From the IMG/VR virus record IMGVR_UViG_3300042898_003677, positions 62,001-126,000 of that record: 64,000 nucleotides of DNA. The stretch is one strand, 5' to 3'. Below are positions 1-55,755 of this stretch, piece by piece. This DNA comes from a virus. The notes beneath the pieces were generated by a model. That model did not search any database. It was given only the letters and a program-made list of their open reading frames with translations, and was not told the DNA's origin. Both the position numbers and the translations under genes were made by a program. Each line of letters begins with the position of its first letter. Positions within the stretch are counted from its first letter, which is position 1.

Positions 1-398
1 GGGATAGCATATCCTGTGTCAATTCCAACAGTTGTTCCATCAACATTGGCAATTAATCTAATTGACCAAGATGGACCAGCATCATACCCTGACAAACCTA
101 AAATTCTTGTTACGAATAATTGGTTAGATTGTTGTAGGTAAGACTTTGCAATGTAAGCCGCCTCATATTTAGGGATTTGAGTTCCGATAAATTTTACTGG
201 TTCTGTTCCACCAAAAAATGTTTGGAATTCATCGTAATTTGTAATGAAGATTGGTTCGAAGGCTGGACCCTTTAAAGTCTCCCCAACTAATCCCAAAGTT
301 GTAACACCTACGCTTTGTGCTACGAAAGATAAGTCTGTTTCTGAAGTATAAACGCCGGGTGAGACGAAAACCTTTTGATTTGCTTGTGCTGTTGCCAT
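1..398 (-). CDS. gp18: tail sheath protein, gp18-like (partial, C-terminus beyond left edge)
   Basis: This encodes the N-terminal 132 residues of a contractile tail sheath subunit, the protein that stacks around the tail tube and shortens on infection. The protein begins MATAQANQKVFVSPGVYTSE. The pattern SPGVYTSETDLS, then GLVGETLKGPAFEP, then an F-x-x-FFGG segment matches the start of T4 gp18-type sheaths (SPGI-E...GPA...FG). The ATG at 398 has no Shine-Dalgarno; its leader is A/T-rich with a TATTTATG octamer about 37 bases upstream. The rest of the gene lies outside the window. The family call is firm; assignment as gp18 rather than another sheath family rests on the surrounding T4-type genes. 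Confidence 0.85.
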   Translation of the reverse strand, partial: MATAQANQKVFVSPGVYTSETDLSFVAQSVGVTTLGLVGETLKGPAFEPIFITNYDEFQTFFGGTEPVKFIGTQIPKYEAAYIAKSYLQQSNQLFVTRILGLSGYDAGPSWSIRLIANVDGTTVGIDTGYAI

Positions 399-434
399 TT
401 AGTTATTCTTTTCTAAAAATGAATTTATTTTTAT

Positions 435-442
435 CATAAATA
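435..442 (-). promoter_or_regulatory. late-type octamer variant (TATTTATG on the minus strand)
   Basis: One-mismatch version of the recurring TATTTATA element, 37 bases before the sheath start codon. Confidence 0.35.
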
Positions 443-499
443 TTTGATTAAAACACAAAAAACTTGACTTTTGAATATGTATTTGTAAACGGTAAGAAT

Positions 500-520
500 T
501 TATTCTGCCTTTATTCTGCC
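500..520 (+). repeat. direct repeat TTATTCTGCC x2 before the small regulator gene
   Basis: Two adjacent copies of TTATTCTGCC separated by a single T end three bases before the start codon at 523. Tandem sites at this position could bind a regulator, possibly the gene's own RHH-like product. This is speculative. Confidence 0.35.
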
Positions 521-522
521 TT

Positions 523-687
523 ATGGACAAAACACCTCATAAAATAAAGAATTTAAAGATTTCTGTTGAAGCACACACAATGTTAAAAAAACACTGTGAA
601 AAACACGGTTTAAAGATTTATAAGTTTTTGGAAAACTTAATTGCCGAAAAGTGTAAAGAAAAAAAAGATATCTACGGAGAGGATTAA
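523..687 (+). CDS. small ribbon-helix-helix-like protein
   Basis: A 54-residue basic protein starting MDKTPHKIKNLKISVEAH. It has one predicted beta strand (NLKISVEA) followed by two helices (HTMLKKHCEKH and KIYKFLENLIAEK), the layout of Arc/CopG/MetJ ribbon-helix-helix DNA-binding proteins. It would therefore be a small dimeric transcription regulator, an inference from secondary-structure pattern only. It is divergent from the sheath gene, with its own 124-base upstream region containing a doubled TTATTCTGCC. Its stop codon overlaps by four bases the stop of the convergent gene at 684-1727. A 60-residue minus-strand reading of the same DNA was rejected because the plus-strand product has the better-formed protein. 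Confidence 0.65.
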   Translation: MDKTPHKIKNLKISVEAHTMLKKHCEKHGLKIYKFLENLIAEKCKEKKDIYGED

Positions 688-1727
688 ACCAACTTGGCAA
701 CAAAGTCTATATTTGCTTCTTGACCAACAGTTTCTTTATTAACCTCAATCAAAATAATATCATTTGTGTTGAGTTGGATTAAGTCTAAATCAGAACCATA
801 GTAATCGCCATTTATGTAAACATCAAATGAATCAACATTTGTTGTACCCATTAAATTTAAATCAATTCGGTAATCAACAATATCACTTAAACTTGTATTA
901 CCCGATGTGTAAATAAAATTGAATGGAAATTCATTTGGGTTTGGTGGCATAATCTCTGCTCGTTTAGCATTTGCCAAACTTGCATCAACTTCAAATAATT
1001 CTAATACTCTACTAACCGCGGGTTTTACTTGGAACTCTTCTTCGTCAATCAAGTAACCTAACATTGTAAAATCATAACTTTGGACATAATATTTTCTTTT
1101 GTCCAAATCCATAACAGAATTATCCGTAACGTTATCCATAATGATTGGAACATACTGACCTTTAATAAAGGTATATGCCTGTCTTGATGAAAAAGTTTGC
1201 ATCACATTTTTATTAAATGTGTTTAACTCTCTCATTCTATTACAGATTATTTTTACACTATATTTTATATCCACAGGAACAGGTTGGGGGATTGTATAAA
1301 CATCATACCCTTTTACGTTTCCGTTCCAAGTAGGAACTGTAGCATAATAAAATTGTTTTCTATTTGGAATAGTATACTGTGTGGATGGATTGGTTCCGTA
1401 TTTAACTTCAGGATTTCTAACTGTTGTAATAAATGGTGGGTTCGTATTGAAGTCAGGGTCTTTGAAGTTCCAAGTTTCAGTAAACTGTGACCAATTTTGT
1501 GTTGTGATAATTTTATCAATAACAGGAACTGTTTTACCCTCAACAACAAGTTTTAAAGAATCCTTAACAAAATCGAGCATACCCCTATCCAAATCAGCGT
1601 GTAATACGGACTTTGGTAGATATGTCCCATCTTTTTGAATATACTCAAGAAGTTCTCGTCTTCTTTCGGATAAAATTTTTGGTGGAACTAAATCTATGTT
1701 TGGTTTTATTTGCTTTGGGAACCCCAT
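684..1727 (-). CDS. putative tail sheath terminator (gp15-like)
   Basis: A 347-residue structural protein. In T4, gp15 caps the tail tube and sheath and docks the tail to the neck. The middle-to-end segment has a VDIKYSVKIICNRM strand, a helix-rich linker (ELNTFNKNVMQTF), then KYYVQSYDFTMLGYL. This order resembles T4 gp15 (an IKMIYEL strand, a two-helix region, then a W-S-L-T-F-E-V-N-G-W segment). Length (347 vs 272) and neighbours (sheath on one side, probable neck gene on the other) fit. The start at ATG 1727 follows the upstream stop by one base (TAATATG), so translation is probably coupled. An upstream TTG at 1742 is unlikely. The assignment is pattern-based and moderate; generic tail structural protein is the safe call. 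Confidence 0.5.
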   Translation of the reverse strand: MGFPKQIKPNIDLVPPKILSERRRELLEYIQKDGTYLPKSVLHADLDRGMLDFVKDSLKLVVEGKTVPVIDKIITTQNWSQFTETWNFKDPDFNTNPPFITTVRNPEVKYGTNPSTQYTIPNRKQFYYATVPTWNGNVKGYDVYTIPQPVPVDIKYSVKIICNRMRELNTFNKNVMQTFSSRQAYTFIKGQYVPIIMDNVTDNSVMDLDKRKYYVQSYDFTMLGYLIDEEEFQVKPAVSRVLELFEVDASLANAKRAEIMPPNPNEFPFNFIYTSGNTSLSDIVDYRIDLNLMGTTNVDSFDVYINGDYYGSDLDLIQLNTNDIILIEVNKETVGQEANIDFVAKLV

Positions 1728-1728
1728 A

Positions 1729-2142
1729 TTAGTTATTAACAATAAAAATTTTATTTTTACGATTTACCATATCAACCGCATTGGCGTGAAATACTGGTTC
1801 TTCAGTATCTTTGTAAACAAATGAGTCATAAACATCGGGCTTATATGTTACAACAATACCGTTTGGTTCTTTAGGGATATTTTCACAAGGGTATTGACAA
1901 AAATCTTCCAAGTAACCAATAACAAATGCGTGAACATTTTTTGATTTTTCACGACGAACTCGGTCTCTACCACCCTTTCTAACTCTGAACTCCACATCAC
2001 TTAATTTTACAAAGTCGGCGTGCATAATAACCTTACCATCAAACGTTACTGAAAAAGTATGTTTGTGTAGGTTATAATACACCATAACTCTTTTACCTAA
2101 AAAGGCAGATTCAAATTGTGATTCAGTAATTAGTATTTTCAT
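1729..2142 (-). CDS. hypothetical protein with MKILITESQF N-terminus
   Basis: A 137-residue protein of unknown function. It starts MKILITESQFESAF, nearly the same opening as the next upstream gene (MKIIITERQYNML), so the pair share an N-terminal tag rather than a whole domain. The remainder is beta-rich with a basic stretch (VRKGGRDRVRREKSK, about residues 53-67). It sits inside the neck/tail minus-strand operon, with 9 bases to the gene at 2152-2448 and one base to the gp15-like gene. No catalytic motif is visible. A virion or assembly role is inferred from context. Confidence 0.7.
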   Translation of the reverse strand: MKILITESQFESAFLGKRVMVYYNLHKHTFSVTFDGKVIMHADFVKLSDVEFRVRKGGRDRVRREKSKNVHAFVIGYLEDFCQYPCENIPKEPNGIVVTYKPDVYDSFVYKDTEEPVFHANAVDMVNRKNKIFIVNN

Positions 2143-2151
2143 ATATTATAA

Positions 2152-2448
2152 TTATTTTGAACAATAGTTATCGTAGGTGTGAATAAAGAAATCCCTAAAT
2201 TGTGATTGATACCCATTGTCAATAAGATATTGATAGATATACTCATATAAATCATCATTACCAATTTGTTCACATAATTGTTCGACAATATTTGCCATTG
2301 ATGAATCAACATATTCTCTAATTTCATCTTTACTCCAATAATCACAAACAGAATCACGGTCCAAGTCACTTATGTGTTCATCGACATACCCCAATCTTCG
2401 TTGTAGTCTTAACATATTGTATTGTCTCTCTGTGATGATGATTTTCAT
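2152..2448 (-). CDS. hypothetical protein with MKIIITERQY N-terminus
   Basis: A 98-residue, mostly helical acidic protein (many D, E, Y; for example DDLYEYIYQYLIDNGY). Its first ten residues, MKIIITERQY, match the opening of the downstream neighbour (MKILITESQF). No known fold was recognised. Its start codon overlaps the stop of the upstream probable neck gene, indicating one transcript. Confidence 0.65.
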   Translation of the reverse strand: MKIIITERQYNMLRLQRRLGYVDEHISDLDRDSVCDYWSKDEIREYVDSSMANIVEQLCEQIGNDDLYEYIYQYLIDNGYQSQFRDFFIHTYDNYCSK

Positions 2449-2963
2449 TAAAATCCGTCAAATTCATTTACCGTAACCGGGGTTGCGATAATTGTTCTGT
2501 AGAATGGTTTGTAACCACCATACGTATGTTTATTGTCTGAAGTAACCCTTCCATCATCGGCTACAGAGAAATATCTAACCTTATCTTCAGTTAAATAATA
2601 ACCCAAGTAATCACCAAACATTACATCAACACCAAGTTCATCAAGATAAGATTGGTAAACAGAAAATTTCATATTACCAGGTTCCATTTGTTCAACCCTA
2701 CTCTGACCTAAGAATTGTGTGGTAGGTGCCATAATTTGAACAAGACCCTTAAGTTCAACAGGGGGTAGGTATTTGATACCACCTTCCAAAGCTTCTCCAT
2801 AAACATCATCAGTATTTGTTTTATATCTGTCGACTCTATAAAGGATTACGGTAAAGTTCATATCACCCTCTAACCACTCTGAACCCATTGCAATATCAAG
2901 GGCATAATCCTCACCACCAAAGAATTTACCTAATCTTGTAATTGGAACTAATTTTTCTCCCAT
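2448..2963 (-). CDS. putative neck protein (gp14-like)
   Basis: A 171-residue beta-rich virion protein. The core reads MKFSVYQSYLDELGVDVMFG then DYLGYYL, then HTYGGYKPFYR near the C-terminus. T4 gp14 has an equivalent run (a V-N-M-S-V strand, a K-x-GDLIYFP turn, then DPFYQV), which is why a neck role is suggested; overall length is shorter (171 vs 256). It is the first gene of the minus-strand block that ends with the probable gp15 gene, matching the T4 order 14-15. A TATTTATC element lies four bases before the ATG. This is an inference from weak similarity; otherwise an uncharacterised structural protein. Confidence 0.45.
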   Translation of the reverse strand: MGEKLVPITRLGKFFGGEDYALDIAMGSEWLEGDMNFTVILYRVDRYKTNTDDVYGEALEGGIKYLPPVELKGLVQIMAPTTQFLGQSRVEQMEPGNMKFSVYQSYLDELGVDVMFGDYLGYYLTEDKVRYFSVADDGRVTSDNKHTYGGYKPFYRTIIATPVTVNEFDGF

Positions 2964-2966
2964 ATT

Positions 2967-2974
2967 GATAAATA
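2967..2974 (-). promoter_or_regulatory. late-type octamer variant (TATTTATC)
   Basis: Lies four bases upstream of the minus-strand start at 2963, in the divergent gap before the plus-strand helicase. Confidence 0.4.
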
Positions 2975-3011
2975 CAATTATATTGATTATTATTATGTAA
3001 AATGCTTTTTG

Positions 3012-4766
3012 ATGGCAGAACCAAGAACAATAGAATCGAAGGCAATCAAGATTTTAGAGGAATACCAAGGGGCCAATAACCACATTATTAACTTAAAAAT
3101 TAAGTTAGAAAAAAACCCTAAATTTTTCCCTACAAGAAGCCAATGTGATTACATCTTTGAGAATAAAGATGTTGTACCTAAAGTTGCTCGTAAATGGGTG
3201 GTACTTGATTCATACTTTTCACAAAAACTTGCTGATGATAAATTCTTAATGACCGTCCCCGAAAAAATGTGGGTGGAAAAGATTTTATGTGAAAGAGATA
3301 AAGCGTTTCATATTTGGGGAAAGTTTTTTGAATCCGATGAATTACAAGAATATTGGGTTCCGAAGGCATCTATTATCAAAGACAATAAGGTTAATATTGG
3401 TGAAATAGATTATTCAAAATATTCTCATCGTCCTCCATTGGACCACCAAAAAATTGCAATCGAACAATTATTAAGAAATAAGAAATACATTTTGGCTGAT
3501 GATATGGGGTTAGGTAAAACTACCTCAACAATTATCGCATCATTAGAGACAGGTGCTAAAAAGATTTTAATTATCTGTCCAGCATCTTTAAAGATTAACT
3601 GGCAACGAGAATATCAACTTTACAGTAACAAAACAAGTTATGTTTGTGAAGGTAAAAACTACTCAAGTGAACACGATATTTTGATAATGAATTATGATAT
3701 TATCAAAAATTTCCACGATACAAAAAACAAAGAAAAGTCTCAAATTTTTAAAGACAAGTTTGATTTAGTAATCATTGATGAAGCACACTACATTCAAAAT
3801 GTCCAAGCTCAAAGAACAAAATTAATTAACGATATTGTTAAAGATGTTGATAGACTTTGGTTATTAACAGGTACCCCGATGACATCAAGACCAATTAATT
3901 ATTTTAATTTGTTATCGTTGGTTGACTCTCCTGTTGCTAAGAATTGGATGGCGTATGTTGTCAGATATTGTGCAGGATATCAGTTCAAAGTAGGACCAAG
4001 AAAAGTTTGGAATGTAATGGGAGCGTCTAACTTGGAGGAATTAAGAGACCGAACTACAACAACGGTTCTTCGTCGTTTAAAAGAAGACGTTTTAGATTTA
4101 CCTGATAAAATCATAACACCAGTTTATTTACGACTCAAGTCAAAATTGTACGAGGAGGTAATGGGTGATTATTATAATTGGTATGAAAAAAATCCTGACG
4201 AGAGTAAAAACTTATCTCTTCAGTTTACAAAGTTAACTCAAGTTAGACAGGTTATCGCAGATGAAAAAGTTAACCACACAATTGAACTTGCAGAGAACAT
4301 AATAGAACAAGGAAAAAAAGTTATCATTTTTTGTAATTTTACAAACTCTTTAGAAAAAATATGTGAACACTTTGGTAAATCTGCGGTGCGTCTTGATGGG
4401 TCAATGTCAAAAACGCAAAGACAAGATTCGGTTGACAGATTCCAAGAAGATGACAAAGTAAAAGTGTTTGTCGGTAATATTAAAGCCGCAGGTGTGGGTA
4501 TCACACTAACCGCAGCTGAAGCTGTTATTATGAACGATTTGTCATTCTTACCGTCTGACCACAGTCAATCTGAGGACCGAGCTTACCGATACGGACAGAA
4601 AAATAATGTTTTGGTTTACTACCCAATTTTTGAAAATACAATCGAAGGAATCATCTATGACATACTCAATAACAAGAAAAAAATTATTGGAACCGTGATG
4701 GGTGATACTCAAGATGAAACAAATGTTGTTGAGGAAATTTTGAAAGAGATTAGTAGAATGAGATAA
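3012..4766 (+). CDS. SNF2-family DNA helicase/ATPase
   Basis: A 584-residue superfamily 2 ATPase of the SNF2 branch. Residues about 140-300 carry LDHQKIAIEQLL (Q-motif region), LADDMGLGKTT (Walker A), ILIICPASLKINWQREY (motif Ia), VIIDEAHYIQN (DEAH box) and LLTGTPMTSRP (motif III). The second lobe has VIIFCNF, RLDGSMSKTQR, KAAGVGITLTAAE (motif V) and EDRAYRYGQ (motif VI). T4-like phages use UvsW for fork regression and recombination; this protein probably fills a related role, but its motifs are those of SNF2/SMARCAL1-type translocases rather than UvsW. The ATG at 3012 is preferred to the TTG just before it. It starts a plus-strand run divergent from the neck operon. Confidence 0.9.
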   Translation: MAEPRTIESKAIKILEEYQGANNHIINLKIKLEKNPKFFPTRSQCDYIFENKDVVPKVARKWVVLDSYFSQKLADDKFLMTVPEKMWVEKILCERDKAFHIWGKFFESDELQEYWVPKASIIKDNKVNIGEIDYSKYSHRPPLDHQKIAIEQLLRNKKYILADDMGLGKTTSTIIASLETGAKKILIICPASLKINWQREYQLYSNKTSYVCEGKNYSSEHDILIMNYDIIKNFHDTKNKEKSQIFKDKFDLVIIDEAHYIQNVQAQRTKLINDIVKDVDRLWLLTGTPMTSRPINYFNLLSLVDSPVAKNWMAYVVRYCAGYQFKVGPRKVWNVMGASNLEELRDRTTTTVLRRLKEDVLDLPDKIITPVYLRLKSKLYEEVMGDYYNWYEKNPDESKNLSLQFTKLTQVRQVIADEKVNHTIELAENIIEQGKKVIIFCNFTNSLEKICEHFGKSAVRLDGSMSKTQRQDSVDRFQEDDKVKVFVGNIKAAGVGITLTAAEAVIMNDLSFLPSDHSQSEDRAYRYGQKNNVLVYYPIFENTIEGIIYDILNNKKKIIGTVMGDTQDETNVVEEILKEISRMR

Positions 4767-4782: not shown

Positions 4783-4790
4783 TATTTATA
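4783..4790 (+). promoter_or_regulatory. late-type octamer TATTTATA
   Basis: Exact match 17 bases before ATG 4808. It lies within the reading frame that would start at GTG 4769, so it favours the ATG. Confidence 0.5.
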
Positions 4791-4807: not shown

Positions 4808-6337
4808 ATGCAACACTTACAAGAATCAGTAGAAAGAGTTGAAAAACAAATTTTACAAGAACAAAAAAAAGAAGAGGTAAAAGTTTTAATTAACGAAATG
4901 AAGAAGATAGGTATTGAAGACCTACCTTATGCCTACACAGCCCTGAAAAGATTTATTGACCCCGAAACAATGAATGTTCATTACAACAAACATTACAAGG
5001 GTTATGTAAATAAGTTAAATGACTTACTCTCTAAAAGAAAATCAAAAAACAACGATTTAGAAAAAATCATAAGAAACATTTCAAAGTATCCAAAGGCAGT
5101 TAGAGATAATGCAGGTGGGGCGTTTAACCACGCATTGTTTTGGAATATGTTATCACCAAAACCGATGAAAGTTGGTAATGATATTAAACAAAGAATCATA
5201 AAAGATTTTGGTAGTTTTGATAGATTCAAAAAAGAATTTGAAAAAATTGCAACAGAAAGATTTGGTTCAGGTTGGGTTTGGTTGATTATTACTAAAAAAA
5301 ATACTCTAAAGGTGATGTCCACTCCAAACCAAGACAATCCACTAATGAATGTTATTGAGGATGGGGGATTCCCATTGTTAGGTTTAGACTTATGGGAACA
5401 CGCTTACTATCTAAAATACAAAAACAAAAGAGACGAATACATTAAAAACTTTTGGACCGCAGTTAATTGGGATTTTGTCGAGGGGTTATACAAGATGAGG
5501 TCTGAGACTCGTTTAACTGAAATAAAAGAAGTTAAAGGTTTAATCTTGGAAGGTAAATCTGAAAGTTGTTCTAAAGAAGAAAAAGATTTTTACCGAGTTT
5601 TATTTAGTGTTAATGAAAATGTTGTTGAGGTTTACAAGAACACAATTAATAAAATAATTAAAAGAAAATTTGCTGACAAGTGGTTCCCTTATTCTAAAGG
5701 TGAATTAGCGGGTGTATACAATTTAGAAAAAGAAGGTCGTTCAGATATAAATTATTTAAACACAAACTACACCGTAATTTGTCCATTAATAAAAGATATT
5801 AATAAAGTTATTACTCGTTCAGGTCAAGAACCAATATCATTTGCGGTACCACCACAAAATCAAGTTGCAGAAATGAAAAGACTCTGTAACTATATTGAAA
5901 AATATCAGGACAGAATTTTTGACCCAAAAAGTGCAACATTCCAAAATATGATGTCGTTATTACTTCGTACAAATGAACAAGGGTCTAAACGAGAAGAATT
6001 TGCAAAAAAAGTAATTACCGAAAAAATACCAAATTCAAAAGTTGTTACAACTGCAGGGTCTGGTTCAGTCAAAGATGCCGTCCAAAAAATTGACTTAGAA
6101 GTTTTCATAAATGGTCAAAAAAATACTTGTCAGGTAAAGGGTTTTATGGAATTAAAACCTGCCGATGGTAAAATAGTTATTATTGGTAGTGGTGAAGTAA
6201 GATACTATAATGTTGATTGGATGGTGTTTGTTAACATAAAAATGAGAAGAGTTGTTATCTTCAGAAACACACCAAATATTGTTATGGGAGAGTATGTTTT
6301 TGATGAGTCAGATTTGATTTACAACTTAAACCTTTAA
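4808..6337 (+). CDS. Fe/Mn superoxide dismutase fused to a PD-(D/E)XK nuclease-like domain
   Basis: A 509-residue fusion. Residues about 40-230 are a complete Fe/Mn superoxide dismutase. The four metal ligands align with E. coli SodB: His58 (NVHYNKHYKGYV), His108 (GGAFNHALFW), Asp194 and His198 (LGLDLWEHAYY). FGSGWVWLI and FWTAVNWDFV are also present. Residues 1-40 are a charged helical extension. Residues about 231-509 are unrelated to SOD. They contain an E-rich helix (KREEFAKKVI, about 395-403), then KIDLEVFING (Asp429) and CQVKGF (Gln442-Lys444), spaced like a PD-(D/E)XK nuclease core. The SOD call is strong; the nuclease call is inference. It lies between a helicase and neck gp13 and is preceded by a late-type octamer, so virion association is possible. 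The start at ATG 4808 was chosen over GTG 4769. Confidence 0.85.
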   Translation: MQHLQESVERVEKQILQEQKKEEVKVLINEMKKIGIEDLPYAYTALKRFIDPETMNVHYNKHYKGYVNKLNDLLSKRKSKNNDLEKIIRNISKYPKAVRDNAGGAFNHALFWNMLSPKPMKVGNDIKQRIIKDFGSFDRFKKEFEKIATERFGSGWVWLIITKKNTLKVMSTPNQDNPLMNVIEDGGFPLLGLDLWEHAYYLKYKNKRDEYIKNFWTAVNWDFVEGLYKMRSETRLTEIKEVKGLILEGKSESCSKEEKDFYRVLFSVNENVVEVYKNTINKIIKRKFADKWFPYSKGELAGVYNLEKEGRSDINYLNTNYTVICPLIKDINKVITRSGQEPISFAVPPQNQVAEMKRLCNYIEKYQDRIFDPKSATFQNMMSLLLRTNEQGSKREEFAKKVITEKIPNSKVVTTAGSGSVKDAVQKIDLEVFINGQKNTCQVKGFMELKPADGKIVIIGSGEVRYYNVDWMVFVNIKMRRVVIFRNTPNIVMGEYVFDESDLIYNLNL

Positions 6338-6342: not shown

Positions 6343-6350
6343 TATTTATA
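6343..6350 (+). promoter_or_regulatory. late-type octamer TATTTATA
   Basis: Exact match ending three bases before ATG 6354. If it were a -10 element, the transcript would have almost no leader. Confidence 0.45.
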
Positions 6351-6353: not shown

Positions 6354-7472
6354 ATGGCAGCAATTCCAGAACCAGAAAGAAGTAAAATTTATACGAGAAT
6401 TAAACATCAGTTAGGTGCACCACTTAGAAGTGTTGAACTTGAAGATGAAATGATGGACTCGTTAATGGAACTATCAATCCAAGACTATGAACAATATGTT
6501 TTAGATTGGTTAATAGAATCTCAATGGGTTAACTTGGTTAACCTTAATATGAGTGAAAAATCAGTTGCAAACGCACTAATTACAAGAACATTTAATCTTG
6601 AGGACCAATACACCTATGCATATTCAAAGATTGTTGGTCTACAAACAGTTGGTCCTTGGGTTCTTAAAAAAGATTACTTTATTCTTAGTGCCAACACACA
6701 AACTTATGAGATACCAGCAGGTCGTGAGGTAAACGAATTACTATGGTTTTCAAACCAACCTTGGCAAAACGTGGCTCTTTGGGGTACCGCTGATTTTGGT
6801 TTTGCAGGCGTAGGTCTTGGTGGTAACCAAGCGGGTTATGCACAATATGGTAACGCAGGTTCGTACTTTATGATGAGTGGTTTTGACTACCTAATTAGAT
6901 ATCAAGAAGCAAATATTCTTAACCGAATCTTAGGTGGTTCATTAACCTATAGAATTACAGGATTACCGGACGGTAAAAAAATGGTTCATTTGTATAATAC
7001 ACCTGGTGGTAATTTTAACTGGAGTAACTATTCTGAATACGCAGGTAAAGCCGTATGGTATTGGTATTATGATGTTGATGGTGATAGTAGAAAAGATTGT
7101 TTAAGAGACAATCCTGACGTTATCAAATTACCTTCAGACGTTCCAATCGAAGACTTAAGTTGGGAAGATTTAAATGCTCCCGCACAACAATGGGTTAGAA
7201 GATGGTTTACCGCTTACTGTAAAGAAACTTTAGCGAGAGTTAGAGGAAAATACTCAGGTAATTTAAAAACCCCTGATAGTGAACTTGTAATGGATTATCA
7301 GTCACTTTTAACTGAAGCTAAAGACGAAAAGACTAAATTAGACGAAGAATTAAAAGCAAGACTTGAAAGATTACGTCCTGAAAAACAAATGGAAAAAGAA
7401 GCTCTAACGGCAGAAAACCTGAATAAACAAATGAAATTTAGGGCAATGCCTCGTCAAATTTATGTTATCTAA
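6354..7472 (+). CDS. gp13: neck protein gp13-like (head completion / head-tail connector)
   Basis: A 372-residue structural protein. Its N-terminus (IYTRIKHQLGAPLRSVEL, then a D-E-x-x-x-x-L-x-x-x-x-x-D-Y helix) matches the head-tail connector signature of cyanophage and T4-type gp13 neck proteins, where an R-x-LGAP-x-x-x-V-x-L/V-x-D motif opens the protein. It should join the portal-filled head to the tail. The middle is Gly/aromatic-rich (GFAGVGLGGNQAGYAQYGNA), and the C-terminus is a charged helix (residues about 315-365, KDEKTKLDEELKARLERLR). The following gene begins two bases after its stop. Length exceeds T4 gp13 (309). Confidence 0.7.
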   Translation: MAAIPEPERSKIYTRIKHQLGAPLRSVELEDEMMDSLMELSIQDYEQYVLDWLIESQWVNLVNLNMSEKSVANALITRTFNLEDQYTYAYSKIVGLQTVGPWVLKKDYFILSANTQTYEIPAGREVNELLWFSNQPWQNVALWGTADFGFAGVGLGGNQAGYAQYGNAGSYFMMSGFDYLIRYQEANILNRILGGSLTYRITGLPDGKKMVHLYNTPGGNFNWSNYSEYAGKAVWYWYYDVDGDSRKDCLRDNPDVIKLPSDVPIEDLSWEDLNAPAQQWVRRWFTAYCKETLARVRGKYSGNLKTPDSELVMDYQSLLTEAKDEKTKLDEELKARLERLRPEKQMEKEALTAENLNKQMKFRAMPRQIYVI

Positions 7473-12004: not shown

Positions 12005-13684
12005 TTAAGACTCTTTTCTCAAGCTTCTGTCATAATGTTCAAATCTATCGTGCTCAGTTGGGGTTGCAAATAACAATGCCGACTTGATATTACCCTTTTT
12101 AGTTTCTTGGAAAATGTAACTCATCCAAGTTTGTTCAAAAGGACGGTCCCACTTTGTTGTTAAGAACATTTTCTCGTTTCCATATCTTGTAACAACTTGT
12201 GGCCAGTTACAATAATAAACTTCACCAATACCATAAGGTAATCCTTGATATGAATATACTGCGTCAAATTTAGTTCTTGGCGCATTAGGGTCTAATCCTT
12301 GAACAGGTAGGTTTGGTTTTTCAGGCCAAAACTTTTCTCTAACTGTTTGAGGAACATTATACCAAGACCATTGAACTCCATTGTCCCCAAAAAACTCAGA
12401 ATAATTTAGTTTCAAAAAGTCTAATGAGTTTTCTCGGGTAATCTTCATAGACTTATTGTATAGGTCCTGAATATTTCTAATGAACCCATTTCTACAAACA
12501 GTATCTTTACCATCATAGAAGAACATATCGTCTTCAAAGAACCAATAAAAATCAAAACCATTTTCTTGTGCGTGTTCAGCGATAAATTGTCTACCACCAC
12601 AGATACCTAAGTTATCTTTTTTAATGTGTTCAAACTCGTATAACTTACAAAGTTCCGAGTATTCCTCGGTAGTTGACAAGTCACTTGAATTATCTAAAAG
12701 ATATTTCTTTTTAGGTTTTGTTAAGAAATTTTCATCATATAACTCCATAGACTTAATCAATGTTTTAAATTGATTAGGACTATTGAATGTAATTACATAG
12801 AGTGAGGTGTTATCATAATCTAAATCACTATAAGACTGTTTACCTGAAATATTTTTAACTTTATAGGTATCATTTTTAACATCTTCACAAAACTTAGAGA
12901 TAAGTCCGTTACCATCAATTTCGTGGTAATCAAACATATCGTTGTGTCTGTATAACATAATACTGAATAAAGATTCTTCAGTGCCCATTAAACCTCTACC
13001 TAAAGTCTCACTTAAAACACTATAATAAAGACTATTAACGTCTGTTATCATACTTTTTAATCCACCAAACAAACCTCCTCTACAAACAAGTTTTACATCT
13101 TGTCCTGCGTAATCATTAATCGTTGGGTATTTGAATCCGTGAATTTCATTTTCAGCGTCATATGGGAACGCCACAAACCCAAATCTTGGAAATACCTTAT
13201 CGAATTTTTCTTGAATTTTATCGTGTGTAAAATATCCAGGATGAACCGTATTTGTAATACCTGCATCAATCCAAAACAAATGTGTGGAGTCAAATTTGTC
13301 AAATATTTTTGCATCGTGCAATACAAACATTTTTGACATAACAAGAGGGTTATACATATCAAGTTTTGCTTGAGTTGATTCTGGCAGCCATCCCGATTGA
13401 CTATACCATTCAGGGTTTGTTCTTATAGACTGAATGATTTCATAAAAATCATTTTTAAACCATTCTTGAGGTCTTACAATAAATTGGGTATTTTCATTAT
13501 TTCTATTTGGTTGTGAAAATACGAATTCTTCAAGTTCTTTATCACCAAAAATAATAAAGTTAGTGTCTTGTCTTAAAAGTTCCGAGAACTTTTGTAGATA
13601 ATGGTCAAACGACCTTGACCATCCTTCAGTCAAAGAGTCACGTTTAATATTCCAAAGTCCGGTTACAAATGTAATTTTACTCAT
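12005..13684 (-). CDS. two-domain glycosyltransferase (WlaTC/HtrL-like N-terminus, GT2-like C-terminus)
   Basis: A 559-residue protein. Residues 1-270 match the WlaTC/HtrL (YibB) family seen in bacterial surface-glycan loci: ITFVTGLWNIKRD, NFIIFGDKELEEFV, LFWIDAGITNTVHPG, GLFGGLKSMI. Residues about 290-559 form a second transferase-like unit opening with SLYVITFNSPNQFKTLIKSM, then FYWFFEDDMFFYDG, whose EDDM gives a candidate metal-binding acidic cluster. The upstream neighbour carries only the first domain type, so this gene is a fusion or an accretion in the same cluster. Its start overlaps the preceding gene by eight bases. Substrates are unknown. Confidence 0.75.
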   Translation of the reverse strand: MSKITFVTGLWNIKRDSLTEGWSRSFDHYLQKFSELLRQDTNFIIFGDKELEEFVFSQPNRNNENTQFIVRPQEWFKNDFYEIIQSIRTNPEWYSQSGWLPESTQAKLDMYNPLVMSKMFVLHDAKIFDKFDSTHLFWIDAGITNTVHPGYFTHDKIQEKFDKVFPRFGFVAFPYDAENEIHGFKYPTINDYAGQDVKLVCRGGLFGGLKSMITDVNSLYYSVLSETLGRGLMGTEESLFSIMLYRHNDMFDYHEIDGNGLISKFCEDVKNDTYKVKNISGKQSYSDLDYDNTSLYVITFNSPNQFKTLIKSMELYDENFLTKPKKKYLLDNSSDLSTTEEYSELCKLYEFEHIKKDNLGICGGRQFIAEHAQENGFDFYWFFEDDMFFYDGKDTVCRNGFIRNIQDLYNKSMKITRENSLDFLKLNYSEFFGDNGVQWSWYNVPQTVREKFWPEKPNLPVQGLDPNAPRTKFDAVYSYQGLPYGIGEVYYCNWPQVVTRYGNEKMFLTTKWDRPFEQTWMSYIFQETKKGNIKSALLFATPTEHDRFEHYDRSLRKES

Positions 13685-14558
13685 CGATTTTATTTAATTC
13701 TTCTAAAATTTTATAGAAACTTTTGTTTTCAACAAAGTAACTGTCAGGGGTTTCTCTTGGAGCGTTATCTCTACACCACCAAGTATCAAAATGTTTTCTA
13801 ACAAAATATTCTGAATGGTTGTAAAACATTAGTGTCATAAACAATTCTTCAGGAAAAGGTCTTTTATCCTCTTCAATAATCTTGTCAGCGTAATTCTCAA
13901 ACATAGGTACTAATGTCTCCCATAATTCTCGTTTACCACCGAACATACCACCAATAATATGAATTGTTCTATCATAATTGGTATACCATTTTGGGTCAAC
14001 TGTTTGAGACCAAAAATTTCTATCATTATCTTTACCAATCAAAAAGAATTTATCTCCTGAAAATTCTACAACATTTTTTAAAAAATCATTATTAAATAAC
14101 GATGACTCATAAAACTTTCTTGGACCGTTTTCTACCGTAAGGTATTTGTTCGGTATTAATCCGCTATGTGATAAACCAGCATCAATCCAATAATAATAAT
14201 CGTATGTTTTATCTTCGTTCCACCACCAACTAAACTTTTGATATTGTATTTCAAAACATCTATCACTTTTTTTAGCGTCTTCATAGTTTTTATACTTTTG
14301 AAGTAGTGTTTCATATCTTGTGGTTCTTAAGTTAGACAACTCAAATTTTAATTTATCTTCAGATATACCATTTTCAACATAAAAGAAATTTTTTAATCTA
14401 TCAATTTCTCTTGTTGAGGTATAACACACAAAATCAGCATCGGTCATTTTTAATAGTGAGAGAAGTGAATTTAAGTAATGACCAAATCTTGATGGTCTAC
14501 CGCCTAACTCAGTCCCATATAGGTCACCGTAAATACAGGTTATAAATTTAACTGACAT
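13677..14558 (-). CDS. WlaTC/HtrL-like glycosyltransferase
   Basis: A 293-residue paralogue of the N-terminal half of the downstream protein: VKFITCIYGDLYG at the start, DADFVCYTSTREI, YYYWIDAGLSHSGLIPNKY and HIIGGMFGGKRELWE. The W-I-D-A-G motif with the later GG-x-FGG is shared by both, arguing for a local duplication. It overlaps both neighbours by about ten bases, so the minus-strand glycosyltransferase genes are translationally coupled. The family is associated with lipo-oligosaccharide synthesis; here a phage-protein or host-surface acceptor is possible. Confidence 0.72.
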   Translation of the reverse strand: MSVKFITCIYGDLYGTELGGRPSRFGHYLNSLLSLLKMTDADFVCYTSTREIDRLKNFFYVENGISEDKLKFELSNLRTTRYETLLQKYKNYEDAKKSDRCFEIQYQKFSWWWNEDKTYDYYYWIDAGLSHSGLIPNKYLTVENGPRKFYESSLFNNDFLKNVVEFSGDKFFLIGKDNDRNFWSQTVDPKWYTNYDRTIHIIGGMFGGKRELWETLVPMFENYADKIIEEDKRPFPEELFMTLMFYNHSEYFVRKHFDTWWCRDNAPRETPDSYFVENKSFYKILEELNKIDE

Positions 14559-15285
14559 AATAATATTCTTTATGAATGTTTTCTTTTTTCATTGTTTTAT
14601 TGTTTACGTTATTCATAAACTCATTAGGTATTTTTACCTCACTATAAAGGTTCCAATTGTATGTTTGACCGTAAAAATTATTACACATTTGTTGTGAAAC
14701 GTCTGACCAGTCATTAGTAATTTGTGGTGCTATGGGTAGAATTGGGCAATAACTTTGTTTTTTTAAATATACTTTTTGATATATGTAATCATCCACTGCG
14801 TAAAATCTTCTACGTTCATCTTCTTCTATGGAAATAACATCATCATATGATGATTCGTGATACAATATCATATTTGTTGCAAAAATACCTCTGTGTTCAG
14901 GAGACGCTGGTGGTAGATTAGTAATATCATTTAATAGTGGGTGTTTTTCGCTCCTATTAACATATCTATTTAAAGTTGGTGCCAAGTTAAAAACTGCGTA
15001 TTCAAGACTTTGACACTCATCTTCGATTGCTTTTAATAAAGATTTTGCATACGGCATAACAACACAATCATCTTCAATAATAAGAACTTCTTTATATCCT
15101 CTTTCTTTCGCAATTTTTAAAATAGCCGTGTGGGAAAGTGTACAACCCACGTGGCTATTAGTATCAACCGCCTTGAATAACTCAAAATCCCATTCAAGAT
15201 ATTCCATTTCTTTTTTAATGGATTCTAATCTATCAGGTCTTCTTTCAAGATTTACTACAAATTTTGGTATTGTATTGAACTTCAT
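14548..15285 (-). CDS. family 25-like glycosyltransferase
   Basis: A 245-residue GT25-type enzyme (lipooligosaccharide and collagen galactosyltransferase family). Diagnostic segments are FVVNLERRPDRLESIKKEM (the N-L-x-R-R-x-x-R opening), VGCTLSHTAILKIA (G-C-x-x-S-H) and EVLIIEDDCVV (E-D-D metal site). The aberrant part is the C-terminus, which lacks a recognisable acceptor domain and ends with a charged tail. It is third in a four-gene glycosyltransferase operon. GT25 enzymes transfer galactose or glucose to glycans or hydroxylysine; the donor here cannot be read. Confidence 0.8.
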   Translation of the reverse strand: MKFNTIPKFVVNLERRPDRLESIKKEMEYLEWDFELFKAVDTNSHVGCTLSHTAILKIAKERGYKEVLIIEDDCVVMPYAKSLLKAIEDECQSLEYAVFNLAPTLNRYVNRSEKHPLLNDITNLPPASPEHRGIFATNMILYHESSYDDVISIEEDERRRFYAVDDYIYQKVYLKKQSYCPILPIAPQITNDWSDVSQQMCNNFYGQTYNWNLYSEVKIPNEFMNNVNNKTMKKENIHKEYYYVS

Positions 15286-15288
15286 TTT

Positions 15289-16536
15289 TTAAAGATTTCC
15301 TGTTAATCTATCACACCAACCCTTAGATTCTGAGTGAGGCCATACAACCCAATATTTAGGTTTTTCTGCTGTTTGGAATTCTCTCCATACTTTACAATAT
15401 CCATCAGGGTCTCTTAACATTGAAGTAATTTCATTTTTATCAGCGTCTTTTCTAAAGATTGTTTCATCATTTTCATTGTGGAACGCAACCACCCAAAAAT
15501 CATAATCTTTTTCAGGTACTGAAGAATAACCAATATCAATACAGTGTTTGAATACTTGTGCGAAATCGGCTTTCCAATCATCTTCAGACTCATAATTGTA
15601 TGGATTTGGCGGATATTTTTTATCAATTGTGTATTGCTGAACAGCTCTTTTTTCAAATAAAAGACCCGCATATTTTTCATAATCTCTTAAACTTCTAACG
15701 GTACCAAAGCCATAAGGACCATCGTGACCTTCTTGAGTTTCACCGTCCATACCAAACAACTTTCTATTTGTTAAGTGTGAGTGATTATTTTTATTAACCC
15801 ATTCTTTGTCATCATCCCATTGTTTTGTTCTTCCTTTACGAGTATACTCGTGCCAAATTAATGTTTTATGTGGGTGAAACAAATCATAACCCCAAGTATA
15901 TGCTCTTGCGGCGATTGAAATTTCTTCTCCGTGGAAGTAATATTCGGGATTGTGTTGTACCTCGTTTGAGAATTCACCTAATGTAAAACAATAGTGTGCA
16001 GAATAGAATCTTGCGGGGATTGGTTCTTTTAAATCTTGCCAACCAGGAATTGTTTCAGGTAAGAAAAATACCGCACCTTCAGGAATAAATCTATCAAAAA
16101 CCATTCTCCAAGGGTCTTGAACTCTACCTGCAGGGTCGTTTTCAGGGTCAAATGATGAAACATATCCTGTTAATAAAGGTTTTTTATGACCTTTCTTTTG
16201 AAGTTGTTTAATCATCTTAATCATCTCGTCATCCCAATTAGGTGCGAACCTCATATGTGAGTCAATTTGTAGGGTATATTCTTCACCCTCATAAAGTTGT
16301 TGTGTTAAGTTTCTAGCCCAACAAACGCCTTTAGATTCTTCGTGTGGAATATCTAAAACTCTGAATCTTTTATCCCCTTCAAATTCTTCTAAACTGTCAA
16401 ATTTATCATCGGGGTGAAATTGTCTTGCAATACCAAATCTAATATTTTTTGGTTTTTTAGCATTTTCCAACATATTCTTAATTGTTGGAACGAGTTGTGG
16501 GTCTCTATAGGACGCAATTTGAACAAAAATTTTCAT
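15289..16536 (-). CDS. GlcNAc-transferase family protein (PF11397 / GT60-like)
   Basis: A 415-residue enzyme with the hallmarks of the GlcNAc family that contains Skp1 and mucin-type polypeptide O-alpha-GlcNAc transferases: FVQIASYRDPQLVPTI at the start, GVCWARNLTQQLY, then YTLQIDSHMRFAPNWD, where D92-S-H94 is the DxD-equivalent, and GEEISIAARAYTWGYDLF toward the end. Known family members act on Ser/Thr or hydroxyproline in proteins. It is the first gene after the terminator of the Thr/Pro-rich fibre gene, which makes those repeats plausible acceptors. The family call is strong; the acceptor is inference. Confidence 0.82.
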   Translation of the reverse strand: MKIFVQIASYRDPQLVPTIKNMLENAKKPKNIRFGIARQFHPDDKFDSLEEFEGDKRFRVLDIPHEESKGVCWARNLTQQLYEGEEYTLQIDSHMRFAPNWDDEMIKMIKQLQKKGHKKPLLTGYVSSFDPENDPAGRVQDPWRMVFDRFIPEGAVFFLPETIPGWQDLKEPIPARFYSAHYCFTLGEFSNEVQHNPEYYFHGEEISIAARAYTWGYDLFHPHKTLIWHEYTRKGRTKQWDDDKEWVNKNNHSHLTNRKLFGMDGETQEGHDGPYGFGTVRSLRDYEKYAGLLFEKRAVQQYTIDKKYPPNPYNYESEDDWKADFAQVFKHCIDIGYSSVPEKDYDFWVVAFHNENDETIFRKDADKNEITSMLRDPDGYCKVWREFQTAEKPKYWVVWPHSESKGWCDRLTGNL

Positions 16537-24485: not shown

Positions 24486-25055
24486 ATGGACATAGAAAAG
24501 TTAATGATGGCAAAGGCCATTATGGATAGAACCAAACAAATGGACTCGGGAGAGGTTGCTAAACCACAACAAAGAATGCAACTAGAAAATTTTGATGCTC
24601 CACAAGCCAAATACAATTTACCAAGTGATTTAATGGAAGGTATTGGTCAACCACAAATGAACATACCTACCAAACAAAATAATGGTATGGGTTTTAGTAA
24701 ACCATCGGTAGATGCAATTAAGAAATCTAAGTTACCAGATGAGATTAAAAGATTAATGATTGAACACCCAATCGACAATCCAAATACAATGTCGGGTCCA
24801 ACATTATCTGATGACTTAATTGAAAAGGCATCAAGACTTATGGGCACTAAACCACAAGTTAACGAACAATCACAACCTCAAACCGTATCAAGTAATTCAG
24901 ATATTAAAAAAATGGTAAAAGAAGCGGTACGTGAAATTTTGTCTGAAAGTGGTTTAATTACTGAATCTACAGAAAAGTCGAATGATGTTTTTACATTTAG
25001 AGTTGGTAAACACCTTTTTGAAGGTAAGCTGACCAAAATTAAAAAAATGAGATAG
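24486..25055 (+). CDS. hypothetical protein with C-terminal VKEAVREIL motif
   Basis: A 189-residue protein rich in Gln, Pro and Asn in the middle (disordered). It has a C-terminal helix SDIKKMVKEAVREILSESG followed by a small beta unit (DVFTFRVGKHLFEGKLTKIK). The helix belongs to a motif repeated in several proteins of this phage (I-x-x-L/M-V-x-x-x-V/I-x-x-x-L-x-E). It is the last gene of the 22528-25055 group. No enzymatic motif is visible; a virion or scaffold-associated role is inferred. Confidence 0.65.
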   Translation: MDIEKLMMAKAIMDRTKQMDSGEVAKPQQRMQLENFDAPQAKYNLPSDLMEGIGQPQMNIPTKQNNGMGFSKPSVDAIKKSKLPDEIKRLMIEHPIDNPNTMSGPTLSDDLIEKASRLMGTKPQVNEQSQPQTVSSNSDIKKMVKEAVREILSESGLITESTEKSNDVFTFRVGKHLFEGKLTKIKKMR

Positions 25056-25079
25056 TCCTTTCTTATTATGATTTGAATT

Positions 25080-25104
25080 CGTATATTTTAGTTTAAAGTA
25101 TACG
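25080..25104 (+). promoter_or_regulatory. candidate promoter/operator upstream of the long plus-strand operon
   Basis: The 54-base gap before 25110 holds the inverted repeat CGTATA ... TATACG (25080-25085 and 25099-25104) around TTTTAGTTTAAAG. A similar ATTTTAGTnTAAA string recurs upstream of the gene at 29335. No TATTTATA is present, which suggests a different, earlier promoter class. Confidence 0.35.
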
Positions 25105-25109
25105 ATATT

Positions 25110-26327: not shown

Positions 26328-26328
26328 T

Positions 26329-27653: not shown

Positions 27654-27663
27654 AAAATAAGAT

Positions 27664-29283: not shown

Positions 29284-29289
29284 AGTCCT

Positions 29290-29297
29290 TATTTATT
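29290..29297 (+). promoter_or_regulatory. late-type octamer variant (TATTTATT)
   Basis: Located 37 bases before ATG 29335. The same gap holds an A/T inverted repeat, ACTAAAA (29301-29307) and TTTTAGT (29316-29322). Confidence 0.3.
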
Positions 29298-29334
29298 TTT
29301 ACTAAAAAATTATTATTTTAGTATAAAAATTAAT

Positions 29335-31311: not shown

Positions 31312-31314
31312 AAT

Positions 31315-31914: not shown

Positions 31915-31917
31915 ATT

Positions 31918-32705: not shown

Positions 32706-32706
32706 A

Positions 32707-34112: not shown

Positions 34113-34114
34113 TT

Positions 34115-35901: not shown

Positions 35902-35938
35902 TTCTTTTTTTTAAAATAAAACCTTTTATATTTTTAAA

Positions 35939-37194: not shown

Positions 37195-37195
37195 T

Positions 37196-37732: not shown

Positions 37733-37733
37733 T

Positions 37734-40178: not shown

Positions 40179-40179
40179 A

Positions 40180-41042: not shown

Positions 41043-41043
41043 T

Positions 41044-42099: not shown

Positions 42100-42100
42100 T

Positions 42101-51352: not shown

Positions 51353-53158
51353 TTATCTCAATTCTCTCAAGTCGAATGTTCTAACACCATCAACTGTGAT
51401 TCTACCATAGAATCTGTTGTTCACCATTTTCTTAGCGTATCTTGTCATAATACCTTTGATTGGTGTGAAGTTGAATGGGTTATACATTGTTGGTGTTAAT
51501 TGTAGAGGTACATACGGTGCGTAAATGTAACCTGTGTCAAGTAACGATGTTCCTTTATGTCCTAACAACACTTGGTTTGCTGGGAAGTAAGGGTCACGGT
51601 AAACTTGATATCTACCAGCCAATGTACCAACTCTCTCAATACCCATATTGTATTGGTCTTGCTCAGGAGCCGCATTTGATACGTGGAAGTATTCCAAGTC
51701 ATCAAAGATAGCAGATACCTCAGAAGATACTACAATCCAGTTAGCTCCACCTCTTAAAGTAGATTTGTGGATTTGAGCTGAGATTTGGTTGATTGCTGTG
51801 ATAAGAGTTTGGTTCCAGTCCTTTTGTGTGTAAGGAACTGCACTTGAACCTAATCTCTTCCATCCGTTGTAGTCCCAACGTAAGTTCCAAGCCGCACCTT
51901 TTCTAAGGTCTCTTAAGATTTCACGGTCGATTTCAGCCGCAACTTGCTCAGACAATAAAGCTGTTAATTCAGCTTCAGCGTCGATGTTGTGGAATGCCGC
52001 TACGTCTTGAGCCATTTCAGGTGACCATTGTGCTCTTAATTTTCTTTCTGTAACCGATACAGTCACTGACTGAAGGTCGAAAGAAACTTCACCGATTCTA
52101 TCTTCAAATTCAAGATTCTTGTAGATTCTATAAGTTGTAGAGAATGCTTGTGAAGCTGCTGACAATGAAGAGTAGAATGTTGAACCTGTGTAACCATCGA
52201 TTGAGTTAGCATCTCCACAAGAGATACAAACAGGAACCTGAAGGTCAACTTCCAAGTAGATTTTACCTTCTGCGTCACATACGTTGTAATATGTACCACC
52301 GTCAGTTCTAGAGTTAGGGAACTCAAGAGTTACGTCTGAACCGTACTCAACAATACCTTTACCATATCTTTGAGTAACAACTCTGAATAAGTAGTTATTG
52401 TTTACGTTAGCAGCTGTTGTGTAGTTACCAGCCTTACCTCTAATAGTCAAGTCAGATAAGAATTCTTCAGTATCCATTGGTTGACCGTTAGGTCCGATTA
52501 ATTGACCAGCACCTGCTGAAGCAAATCCTGTCATAACCAAAAGAACTTTTCTGTAGTTATCTAAACCATAACCTGAAGCAACTAACTCATCACCAACCCA
52601 TACTACAGTAGAGTTACCAGCTGTGATTGACGAGAAGCTACCTTTTGAGTAGTCGTAAAGACCTGGAGGGTCAAGAGCTGGTTCGTTACCTTCGTAGAAT
52701 CTATCGTAAAGGTCTTTAGTTGCGTTGTAATCATAACCACTATTTGGTTGTTGGTTAGCAGCCGCGTTAGGTGAACCATAAGGTGCCCAGTGTTCACCAA
52801 ATGTTGATGTTTCAGTTTCGTAAGACTGAATGTTAGGTACGAAGTAGAACAATTTACCGATAGGAAGGTTCATAGCTTGTACTGAAACGATGTCGTTAGC
52901 CAAAAGTTTAGAGAAAACTCTTCTTACGATTGGGAAAACAACTGTTTCAAATGAACCTGAGTCAGCAGTTGATGCAGCTTCGTTAATGAGATATGATGCT
53001 TGGTTTTCATATAACTGAGCAACGTTCTCTTTTAGGTGGCCTTTAAGACCTTCAAGGAACCCTAATTTGTCCCATTTGTTGATTGTATCTTCTTTGATAA
53101 CTTTAAGGTGCTTAAGACCAATGTTACCAACAAGACCTGATTCTAATAATGCTCCCAT
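51353..53158 (-). CDS. gp23: major capsid protein, gp23-like
   Basis: The 601-residue T4-type capsid protein (T4 gp23: 521). After a removable N-terminal part comes FETVVFPIVRRVFSKLLAND and VSVQAMNLPIGKLFYFVPNI, equal to the gp23 stretch (V-R-R-A-I-P-N-L-I-A-F-D-I-x-x-V-Q-P-M-N-x-P-T-G). Then RAQWSPEMAQDVAAFHNIDA and EVAAEIDREILRDLRK, and the C-terminal GIMTRYAKKMVNNRFYGRIT. A likely gp21 cleavage site is after Glu60 (SYLINE|AASTAD). The extra length lies in a middle insertion. Downstream terminator is strong; expression is expected to be very high. Confidence 0.95.
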   Translation of the reverse strand: MGALLESGLVGNIGLKHLKVIKEDTINKWDKLGFLEGLKGHLKENVAQLYENQASYLINEAASTADSGSFETVVFPIVRRVFSKLLANDIVSVQAMNLPIGKLFYFVPNIQSYETETSTFGEHWAPYGSPNAAANQQPNSGYDYNATKDLYDRFYEGNEPALDPPGLYDYSKGSFSSITAGNSTVVWVGDELVASGYGLDNYRKVLLVMTGFASAGAGQLIGPNGQPMDTEEFLSDLTIRGKAGNYTTAANVNNNYLFRVVTQRYGKGIVEYGSDVTLEFPNSRTDGGTYYNVCDAEGKIYLEVDLQVPVCISCGDANSIDGYTGSTFYSSLSAASQAFSTTYRIYKNLEFEDRIGEVSFDLQSVTVSVTERKLRAQWSPEMAQDVAAFHNIDAEAELTALLSEQVAAEIDREILRDLRKGAAWNLRWDYNGWKRLGSSAVPYTQKDWNQTLITAINQISAQIHKSTLRGGANWIVVSSEVSAIFDDLEYFHVSNAAPEQDQYNMGIERVGTLAGRYQVYRDPYFPANQVLLGHKGTSLLDTGYIYAPYVPLQLTPTMYNPFNFTPIKGIMTRYAKKMVNNRFYGRITVDGVRTFDLRELR

Positions 53159-54717: not shown

Positions 54718-54725
54718 TATAAATA
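54718..54725 (-). promoter_or_regulatory. late-type octamer TATTTATA
   Basis: Exact match 12 bases before the scaffold start at 54705. Confidence 0.5.
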
Positions 54726-55041: not shown

Positions 55042-55755
55042 TTATCTTGTTAAATAATCGTTTAATTTTTTCATTAAGTCAACAGACTTACCCAAAGAAT
55101 CTGAGTCTTTCATCTTTCTTTCTTCTTCTAAGTTTTCTTCGTAGTTATTTCTATCTTCAGGATTACTGAATAAGTAAGCACCTGGTGTAGATGGTGAAGA
55201 TACCAAGTCAAAACAAATTAATTCAAAATCGTCTTGAACTTCATTTTGTTCACCAACTTTTTTAAGAGAGCCGACACCACGAGATGAAACACCCATAGTA
55301 ACACCTTGTCTCATTAGATTGGCAGCAATATCTCCTTTTGTAGATACGATACCTCTTTCGTGGAAACCTGGTGATGTCAATAATTTTAGCTTACCCATCA
55401 AAATATTATTGTCCCACCATATATCAGTAATAATATGCGCAACTCTATCTAAATCGATAAGTGATGATTCAGGGTGATTTAATTCAGATGTTGATAAACC
55501 TTTCTTAATTGCTGTCTTATATCTCTCAGCTTCTCTTTTTAAAATCCTTTCAGGATAAACTCTACCATTTCTATTTGGTACACCATATTTTTGTAAAACG
55601 GCGTAAAACTCAAAAGGATTTCTATAATCAAGTTCTTTTTGTTCCCTCATTATAGCTTCATTGAGACGGTCAGTTGGGGAGATATATCCCGCATCCATTT
55701 CAATAAGAATTCCTTTTCCTGTTTGGCCTGCTCCAAGTACTGAATAATTTTTCAT
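55042..55755 (-). CDS. gp21: prohead protease, gp21-like
   Basis: A 237-residue serine protease that matures the T4-type prohead by cutting capsid and core proteins. Features: FYAVLQKYGVPNRNGRVYPE, STSELNHPESSLIDLDRVAH with catalytic His in N-H-P, DIWWDNNILMGKLKLL, and GVTMGVSSRGVGSL with nucleophile Ser in the S-S-R-G motif, then FELICFDLVSSPSTPGAY. These are the peptidase S80/U9 signatures. It is located between portal and scaffold/capsid as in T4. The last 40 residues are helical and charged. Confidence 0.93.
   Translation of the reverse strand: MKNYSVLGAGQTGKGILIEMDAGYISPTDRLNEAIMREQKELDYRNPFEFYAVLQKYGVPNRNGRVYPERILKREAERYKTAIKKGLSTSELNHPESSLIDLDRVAHIITDIWWDNNILMGKLKLLTSPGFHERGIVSTKGDIAANLMRQGVTMGVSSRGVGSLKKVGEQNEVQDDFELICFDLVSSPSTPGAYLFSNPEDRNNYEENLEEERKMKDSDSLGKSVDLMKKLNDYLTR

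Follow-up and report, generated by a model that had tools for sequence, protein, structure and literature searches.

A phage superoxide dismutase-nuclease fusion that may be a cleavable, head-packaged polyprotein

The prohead protease of bacteriophage T4, gp21, cleaves after the motif L/I-X-E (PMC9026906). Polyvalent proteins of phages and plasmids unite disparate activities in one polypeptide and are thought to be co-injected with the DNA; cutting apart inside the head has sometimes been proposed for them, and the word superoxide is absent from the survey in which they are described (Iyer et al. 2017, PMC5512222). A virion-packaged viral superoxide dismutase (SOD) is known from the chlorovirus PBCV-1, whose Cu/Zn enzyme, A245R, is the product of a late gene (PMC7019647). 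None of the papers searched describes a phage SOD-nuclease fusion or the putative cleavage sites considered below.

Such a fusion is encoded in the window analysed here, a stretch of viral DNA of 64,000 nucleotides. The gene, its parts, and its two constant neighbours are as follows, with coordinates counted from the first base of the window.

4808..6337, + strand: SOD-nuclease fusion gene, 509 amino acids plus stop (ATG at 4808, stop at 6335-6337)
4808..4915, + strand: N-terminal leader helix, residues 1-36 (helix 2-33 in the model), a possible capsid-targeting leader
4913..5494, + strand: Fe/Mn superoxide dismutase domain, Mn-type, residues 36-229 (Pfam, PDB, invariant ligands, dN/dS 0.038)
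5567..6334, + strand: C-terminal PD-(D/E)XK-like nuclease domain, residues 254-509 (AlphaFold2, Foldseek, dN/dS 0.071)
3009..4766, + strand: SNF2-family helicase, the constant neighbour upstream of the fusion
6354..7472, + strand: neck or head-tail adaptor-like gene, the constant neighbour downstream of the fusion (phrog_211, 4e-11)

The boundaries, frame, and 509-residue length of the open reading frame are those of the original prediction, and its central observation, a SOD joined to a nuclease-like domain, was confirmed. As judged from sequence and model, the order along the chain is leader helix, [LIV]xE, Mn-type SOD, [LIV]xE ... [LIV]xE, and PD-(D/E)XK-like domain. No PHROGs family matches the fusion protein. 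The leader (residues 1-36) resembles the T4 capsid-targeting sequences in general character only, with no clear similarity, and is kept by most of the relatives that lack the SOD.

The assignment of residues 36-229 as a SOD is well supported by the sequence comparisons. Matches to the Pfam families Sod_Fe_N (4e-23, 82.1 bits versus a cut-off of 27) and Sod_Fe_C (6.5e-40, 135.8 bits versus 20.9) span residues 36-225, and the best solved relatives returned by a PDB sequence search are mostly Mn SODs, with scores of up to 204 bits. The four metal ligands that had been named at the outset, H58, H108, D194, and H198, are conserved in every one of 31 divergent members. Equally invariant in these members are H62, Y66, Q175, E197, and Y201, which match H30, Y34, Q146, E170, and Y174 of MnSOD. 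On the basis of what is known about MnSODs, we take H62, Y66, E197, and Y201 to be gateway and dimer-interface residues, and Q175 to be the second-shell Gln of Mn-type enzymes. The position of this Gln, together with a better score for the fusion with the Mn SOD model than with the Fe model, suggests the Mn type. In a phylogenetic tree the sampled phage SODs form a single clade (99.9% SH-aLRT), and the cellular SODs closest to them are mostly from Bacteroidota.

For the C-terminal domain, a restriction-type nuclease had been proposed from a D...Q-x-K arrangement, with structure prediction as a check. The AlphaFold2 model, calculated on a 35-row alignment, has a pLDDT of 89 in this domain and matches the PD-(D/E)XK fold. 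A Foldseek search with the model gave I-Ssp6803I (2ost) as the best match (E 8.5e-4, probability 1.00), followed by 4tkd and 1gef. These best solved matches, I-Ssp6803I and the Hjc resolvases, are partial and cover the PD-(D/E)XK core with TMt values of ~0.40-0.55.

5933..6145, + strand: nuclease core, with E396 (helix), D429 (strand), and Q442-x-K444 (strand) as invariant residues

As can be seen in the model, E396 lies on a long helix, and D429 and Q442-x-K444 lie on successive strands. The D...Q-x-K arrangement is indeed present: E396, D423, D429, Q442, and K444 are invariant, and E396, D429, Q442, and K444 are also conserved in L082, a SOD-less homologue of 25% identity from a 735-kb phage. 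The active-site set is acidic, acidic, (D/E/Q)-x-K, with Q as a variant of (D/E). A nuclease fold for the domain is well supported by the model. Searches of Pfam, NCBIfam, PHROG, and PADLOC gave no significant match for the domain, and a PDB sequence search gave none. When 84,980 genomes were scanned by pattern, a procedure that detects only sequences sharing two short patterns, no cellular relative was seen. In BFVD the domain is carried by A0A6J5L953, a protein of 501 amino acids named only 'superoxide dismutase', which is therefore very probably the same fusion, and by a marine phage protein of 1,113 amino acids. A query with the huge-phage homologue of the domain gave no further loci. The stand-alone genes for this domain in L082 and L328 lie amid small genes, with the N-termini MKIKKFNE, MKYIKLFEE, and MENLKNYNDFNKINEE, which recall T4 leaders.

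Given that a neck gene adjoins the fusion in all loci of the lineage, the domain might be a head-completion nuclease that works like T4 gp4, in completing the head ahead of tail joining, with the SOD as an accessory. Head closure is the annotated role of T4 gp4, which has a D...E-x-K pattern, and the C-terminal domain is kept when the SOD is lost. The record contains no match to the TnsA-type family PF08722, which we take to be the Pfam family covering T4 gp4, but the record is incomplete and the absence proves little. An hhalign comparison of the C-terminal domain with T4 gp4, using a single sequence on one side, showed no profile similarity (probability of 0.1), and in two other large phages the homologues of the domain are located away from recognised head genes, amid genes of unknown function. 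No TnsA-like Pfam match to the domain is found among the matches listed. There may be a distant kinship to gp4 inside the PD-(D/E)XK superfamily; a gp4-like role is improbable.

Far from being confined to a single phage, the SOD is normally present in a large lineage of related viral contigs. A scan of viral contigs yielded at least 597 confirmed stretches matching the fusion, some of which may come from the same phage or be incomplete. The best 80 of these are nearly all full length, with identities of 52-100%, and a profile search extended the family to members of ~43-50% identity. Recurrence of the full-length fusion in so many viral contigs is far beyond chance. The gene order is constant, with the SNF2 helicase, the fusion, the neck gene, and a gene for a 111-residue protein in succession and DNA polymerase B encoded on the opposite strand. 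Median dN/dS values of 0.038 for the SOD and 0.071 for the C-terminal domain, from 130 pairs that are related and not independent, indicate strong purifying selection acting on each domain.

These data bear on whether the gene is an assembly chimera or is decaying. A SOD in a phage record can be host contamination, and several of the SOD-matching 'phage' records in a phage collection (H1-H9) look like bacterial contigs, so that SOD counts in phage databases are inflated. For the fusion, contamination, a chimera, and decay are ruled out by a domain order and gene neighbourhood that recur in many independent contigs, by the single phage SOD clade, and by the dN/dS of 0.04-0.07; this explanation is refuted. 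A search of the phage collection turned up no isolate that carries the full fusion.

The record holds a T4-type terminase (terL), a portal, a gp21-type protease, and a gp23-type major capsid protein (phrog_138). Among the named phages whose capsid proteins are nearest to that of the record are Flavobacterium phage immuto and Microcystis phage Mel-JY01, and these relatives, along with the literature, point to a freshwater setting for the lineage. Because the phage SODs fall in one clade and have their closest cellular counterparts mostly in Bacteroidota, the T4-like phages with the fusion probably infect this host group. Read from the sequence, the window also contains a run of glycosyltransferase-like genes (12005-16536, - strand) and a nucleotide-sugar or capsule-type gene cluster (~25000-43000, + strand). 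Outside of the window, at the start of the record (G000, 241-4635), ~5 kb of repetitive open reading frames (MNLMYHLNLM...) are probably a long repeat-rich gene in the wrong frame.

Twenty-two unique proteins without the SOD keep the C-terminal domain. In the tree of this domain the SOD-less proteins need two separate changes, one of which is very recent (L134 beside the SOD-bearing L152), and the SOD has thus been lost at least two times in related phages with the nuclease domain kept. No replacement Fe/Mn SOD was found elsewhere in five SOD-less records, some of which may be fragments. Since the SOD-less proteins retain the C-terminal domain, the nuclease is the carrier of the conserved function and the SOD is optional. 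The SOD-less records L136, L255, L259, and L374 measure 160-318 kb, versus 150-182 kb for the SOD-bearing ones checked; from the few records compared, a link between SOD loss and genome size is possible.

The losses also weigh on the proposal in the original prediction of a nuclease sensing redox state, in which the SOD domain would switch the nuclease in response to superoxide. Both predicted activities lie in one chain, and C254 and C325 are invariant in the C-terminal part (alignment A3), yet at least two deletions of the SOD have left the nuclease intact. Moreover, the linker between the two domains is of low confidence in the model and contains conserved putative cleavage sites, at which the domains would be separated, and Fe/Mn SODs are catalysts that are not known to act as sensors. 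Such a switch is most improbable. Of the interpretation as first put forward, then, the SOD, the restriction-type fold, and the late association stand, and the redox-sensing nuclease does not.

The late association rested on an octamer ahead of the gene.

4783..4790, + strand: TATTTATA (gene-sense), a putative late promoter element 17 nucleotides ahead of the ATG

The octamer is present, but TATAAATA, the T4 late octamer, occurs at 4783-4790 on the strand opposite the gene, and the sequence in gene orientation is its reverse complement, TATTTATA. As a sense late promoter TATAAATA was rejected for its wrong orientation, TATTTATA being the form enriched upstream of genes. Indeed, in the 150-kb record 19 of the 22 occurrences of TATTTATA in gene orientation fall within 80 nucleotides upstream of a gene start. 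The 19 genes so preceded, out of 116, are mostly virion genes (portal, scaffold-like, neck, and others of the virion region). When unique upstream 60-mers are counted, TATTTAT is kept in 101/106 for the fusion and 100/101 for the neck gene, versus 3/63 for the SNF2 helicase and 0/96 for the 111-residue protein. Further copies of TATTTATA are positioned by virion genes in the window, for example at 6343-6350, 54718-54725, and 57204-57211. We infer that TATTTATA is the late promoter of this phage and, inverted as it is with respect to the T4 late TATAAATA, that it may belong to a late promoter class of its own. The TATTTATA/TATTTAT element common to the fusion and the neck and virion genes, along with the synteny, supports the association of the fusion with late, structural genes.

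Three putative prohead protease sites flank the SOD. They are given here with the candidate enzyme and a reference site, a slash following the glutamate of the motif.

4889..4897, + strand: putative prohead protease site 1, I28-N-E30/M, kept in divergent lineages
5513..5521, + strand: putative prohead protease site 2, L236-T-E238
5543..5551, + strand: putative prohead protease site 3, I246-L-E248/G
55042..55755, - strand: gp21-type head maturation protease, the candidate enzyme for the sites (phrog_207, 1.8e-43)
52979..52990, - strand: LINE/A site in the major capsid protein (51353-53158), a reference for the protease motif of this phage

The LINE/A of the major capsid protein is located at residue 60, which we take to be about where T4-type capsid proteins are cut, and does not vary among 72 related capsid proteins. 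In the fusion, site 1 reads LINE/M. Among 84 unique SOD-bearing proteins, [L/I]xE is found at site 1 (E30) in 83, the remaining one having VTE, at site 2 (E238) in 79, four others having the E shifted by one residue (LIQE), and at site 3 (E248) in all 84 as well as in 20 of 22 SOD-less proteins; since the sequences are related, these counts are not independent. In the same 84 proteins, each of the three sites has L/I two residues ahead of the E and a freely variable middle residue. Members that are 43-50% identical to the window protein keep the sites as VAE/A, IDE/A, LLE/A, LTE/A, and ISE/G, and the divergent member L388 has MKE at site 3. In the full-length model the pLDDT is below 50 at residues 23-42 and 235-248, and the sites lie in or beside these stretches. 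Site 3 has decayed in two SOD-less proteins whose leaders are very short, which, for two cases only, fits a processing site.

The [LI]xE motif is short and occurs ~1.1 times per 100 residues of this proteome. Isolated [L/I/V]-x-E sites, with a middle-residue entropy of at least 2.0 and a context entropy of at least 1.5 bits, number three in the fusion (509 residues) versus one in six neighbouring proteins (2,485 residues); with the cut-offs picked post hoc and the rows related, this count is supportive rather than a formal test. Near the fusion, small proteins encoded at 1729-2142 and 2152-2448 (both - strand) start with MKILITES and MKIIITER, an N-terminal I-T-E like that of the short T4 internal-protein leaders; the former belongs to the L5 gp82 family (PF25735). 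Another protein of the record starts with MKYIITESQYNLINEAL. These are possible further packaged proteins.

The reading that we favour, with a probability of roughly 0.45, is that the fusion is a late, head-packaged modular polyprotein of T4-like phages that is cleaved to give a SOD and a nuclease, both of which are ejected along with the DNA. Following late synthesis, the leader would bring the fusion into the prohead core, the gp21-type protease would cleave it, and the SOD and the nuclease would stay in the head until ejection. The SOD would remove superoxide around the packaged or just-injected DNA, ahead of any phage gene expression, and the nuclease would act on the DNA of the new host or on the ends of the packaged DNA. 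Packaging had been suggested from the outset; it is plausible, and the gp21-type sites lend it independent support. Note that the position of the gene, outside the head-gene block and beside the neck gene, counts against it, and that a free nuclease in a DNA-filled head would require restraint or specificity.

The protein could instead be a late intracellular bifunctional enzyme that is never packaged, its SOD lowering superoxide during assembly and its nuclease serving in late DNA processing. Freshwater phages carry many genes for defence against reactive oxygen species, including SODs, and these are taken as intracellular auxiliary genes (PMC6802176). The adjoining SNF2 helicase and the closeness of the SOD to host-type SODs of Bacteroidota also agree with an unpackaged enzyme. 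Left unexplained by it, however, are the three conserved [LIV]xE sites in the low-confidence linkers flanking the SOD, the conserved leader, and the joining of the SOD to a nuclease, and we consider it unlikely.

The favoured polyprotein reading can be put more specifically, as a tentative proposal: in tailed phages of freshwater Bacteroidota, a virion SOD may travel within a cleavable nuclease polyprotein from which the prohead protease frees both enzymes, such that the SOD would enter the new host alongside the genome and ahead of gene expression. If packaged, it would be, to our knowledge, the first virion-borne SOD of any bacterial virus. A maturation protease with flanking sites would then represent a new way of carrying an enzyme that is optional to the phage. 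From its precise losses in nature, the SOD can be seen to be optional cargo, with the conserved nuclease as its carrier, and such a design might be used again. Oxidative DNA damage, incurred at entry or while the virion is stored in sunlit water, would be a real selective pressure on virions, one that possibly includes oxidative bursts of hosts or grazers. The label 'superoxide dismutase' in phage records may thereby become a specific claim, the capsid delivery of an antioxidant enzyme, beyond expression alone.

How the fusion compares with known systems can be considered part by part. With the E. coli SodA-like Fe/Mn SODs it has in common both Pfam domains, the four ligands, Q175, and H62/Y66/E197/Y201, and it differs from them in that its SOD lies between a leader and a nuclease domain and belongs to a phage-only clade on its own branch. 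The stand-alone phage SODs of the Pseudomonas PA5oct group and Vibrio 2.275.O are likewise of the Fe/Mn type, but they are 27-28% identical to the fusion, and the match is confined to the SOD part. PBCV-1 A245R is also a viral SOD, albeit of an unrelated Cu/Zn fold and from an algal virus, and we know of no nuclease fusion for it. The C-terminal domain shares the core fold and the E...D...(Q)xK residue order with I-Ssp6803I and Hjc, whereas its identity to them is ~12-18% and it has an extra N-terminal helical half (~120 residues) and extra strands. Like T4 Alt and IPI-IPIII, which are gp21 substrates, the fusion has a leader and the L/I-X-E motif, and the phage has a like protease and like capsid genes; unlike them, it is a putative virion protein, its cargo is a SOD plus a nuclease, and its sites lie on both sides of an internal enzyme. 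Finally, the fusion resembles the polyvalent proteins in having two disparate domains, as seen here from sequence, but separation in the fusion would be accomplished by the prohead protease rather than by a built-in peptidase.
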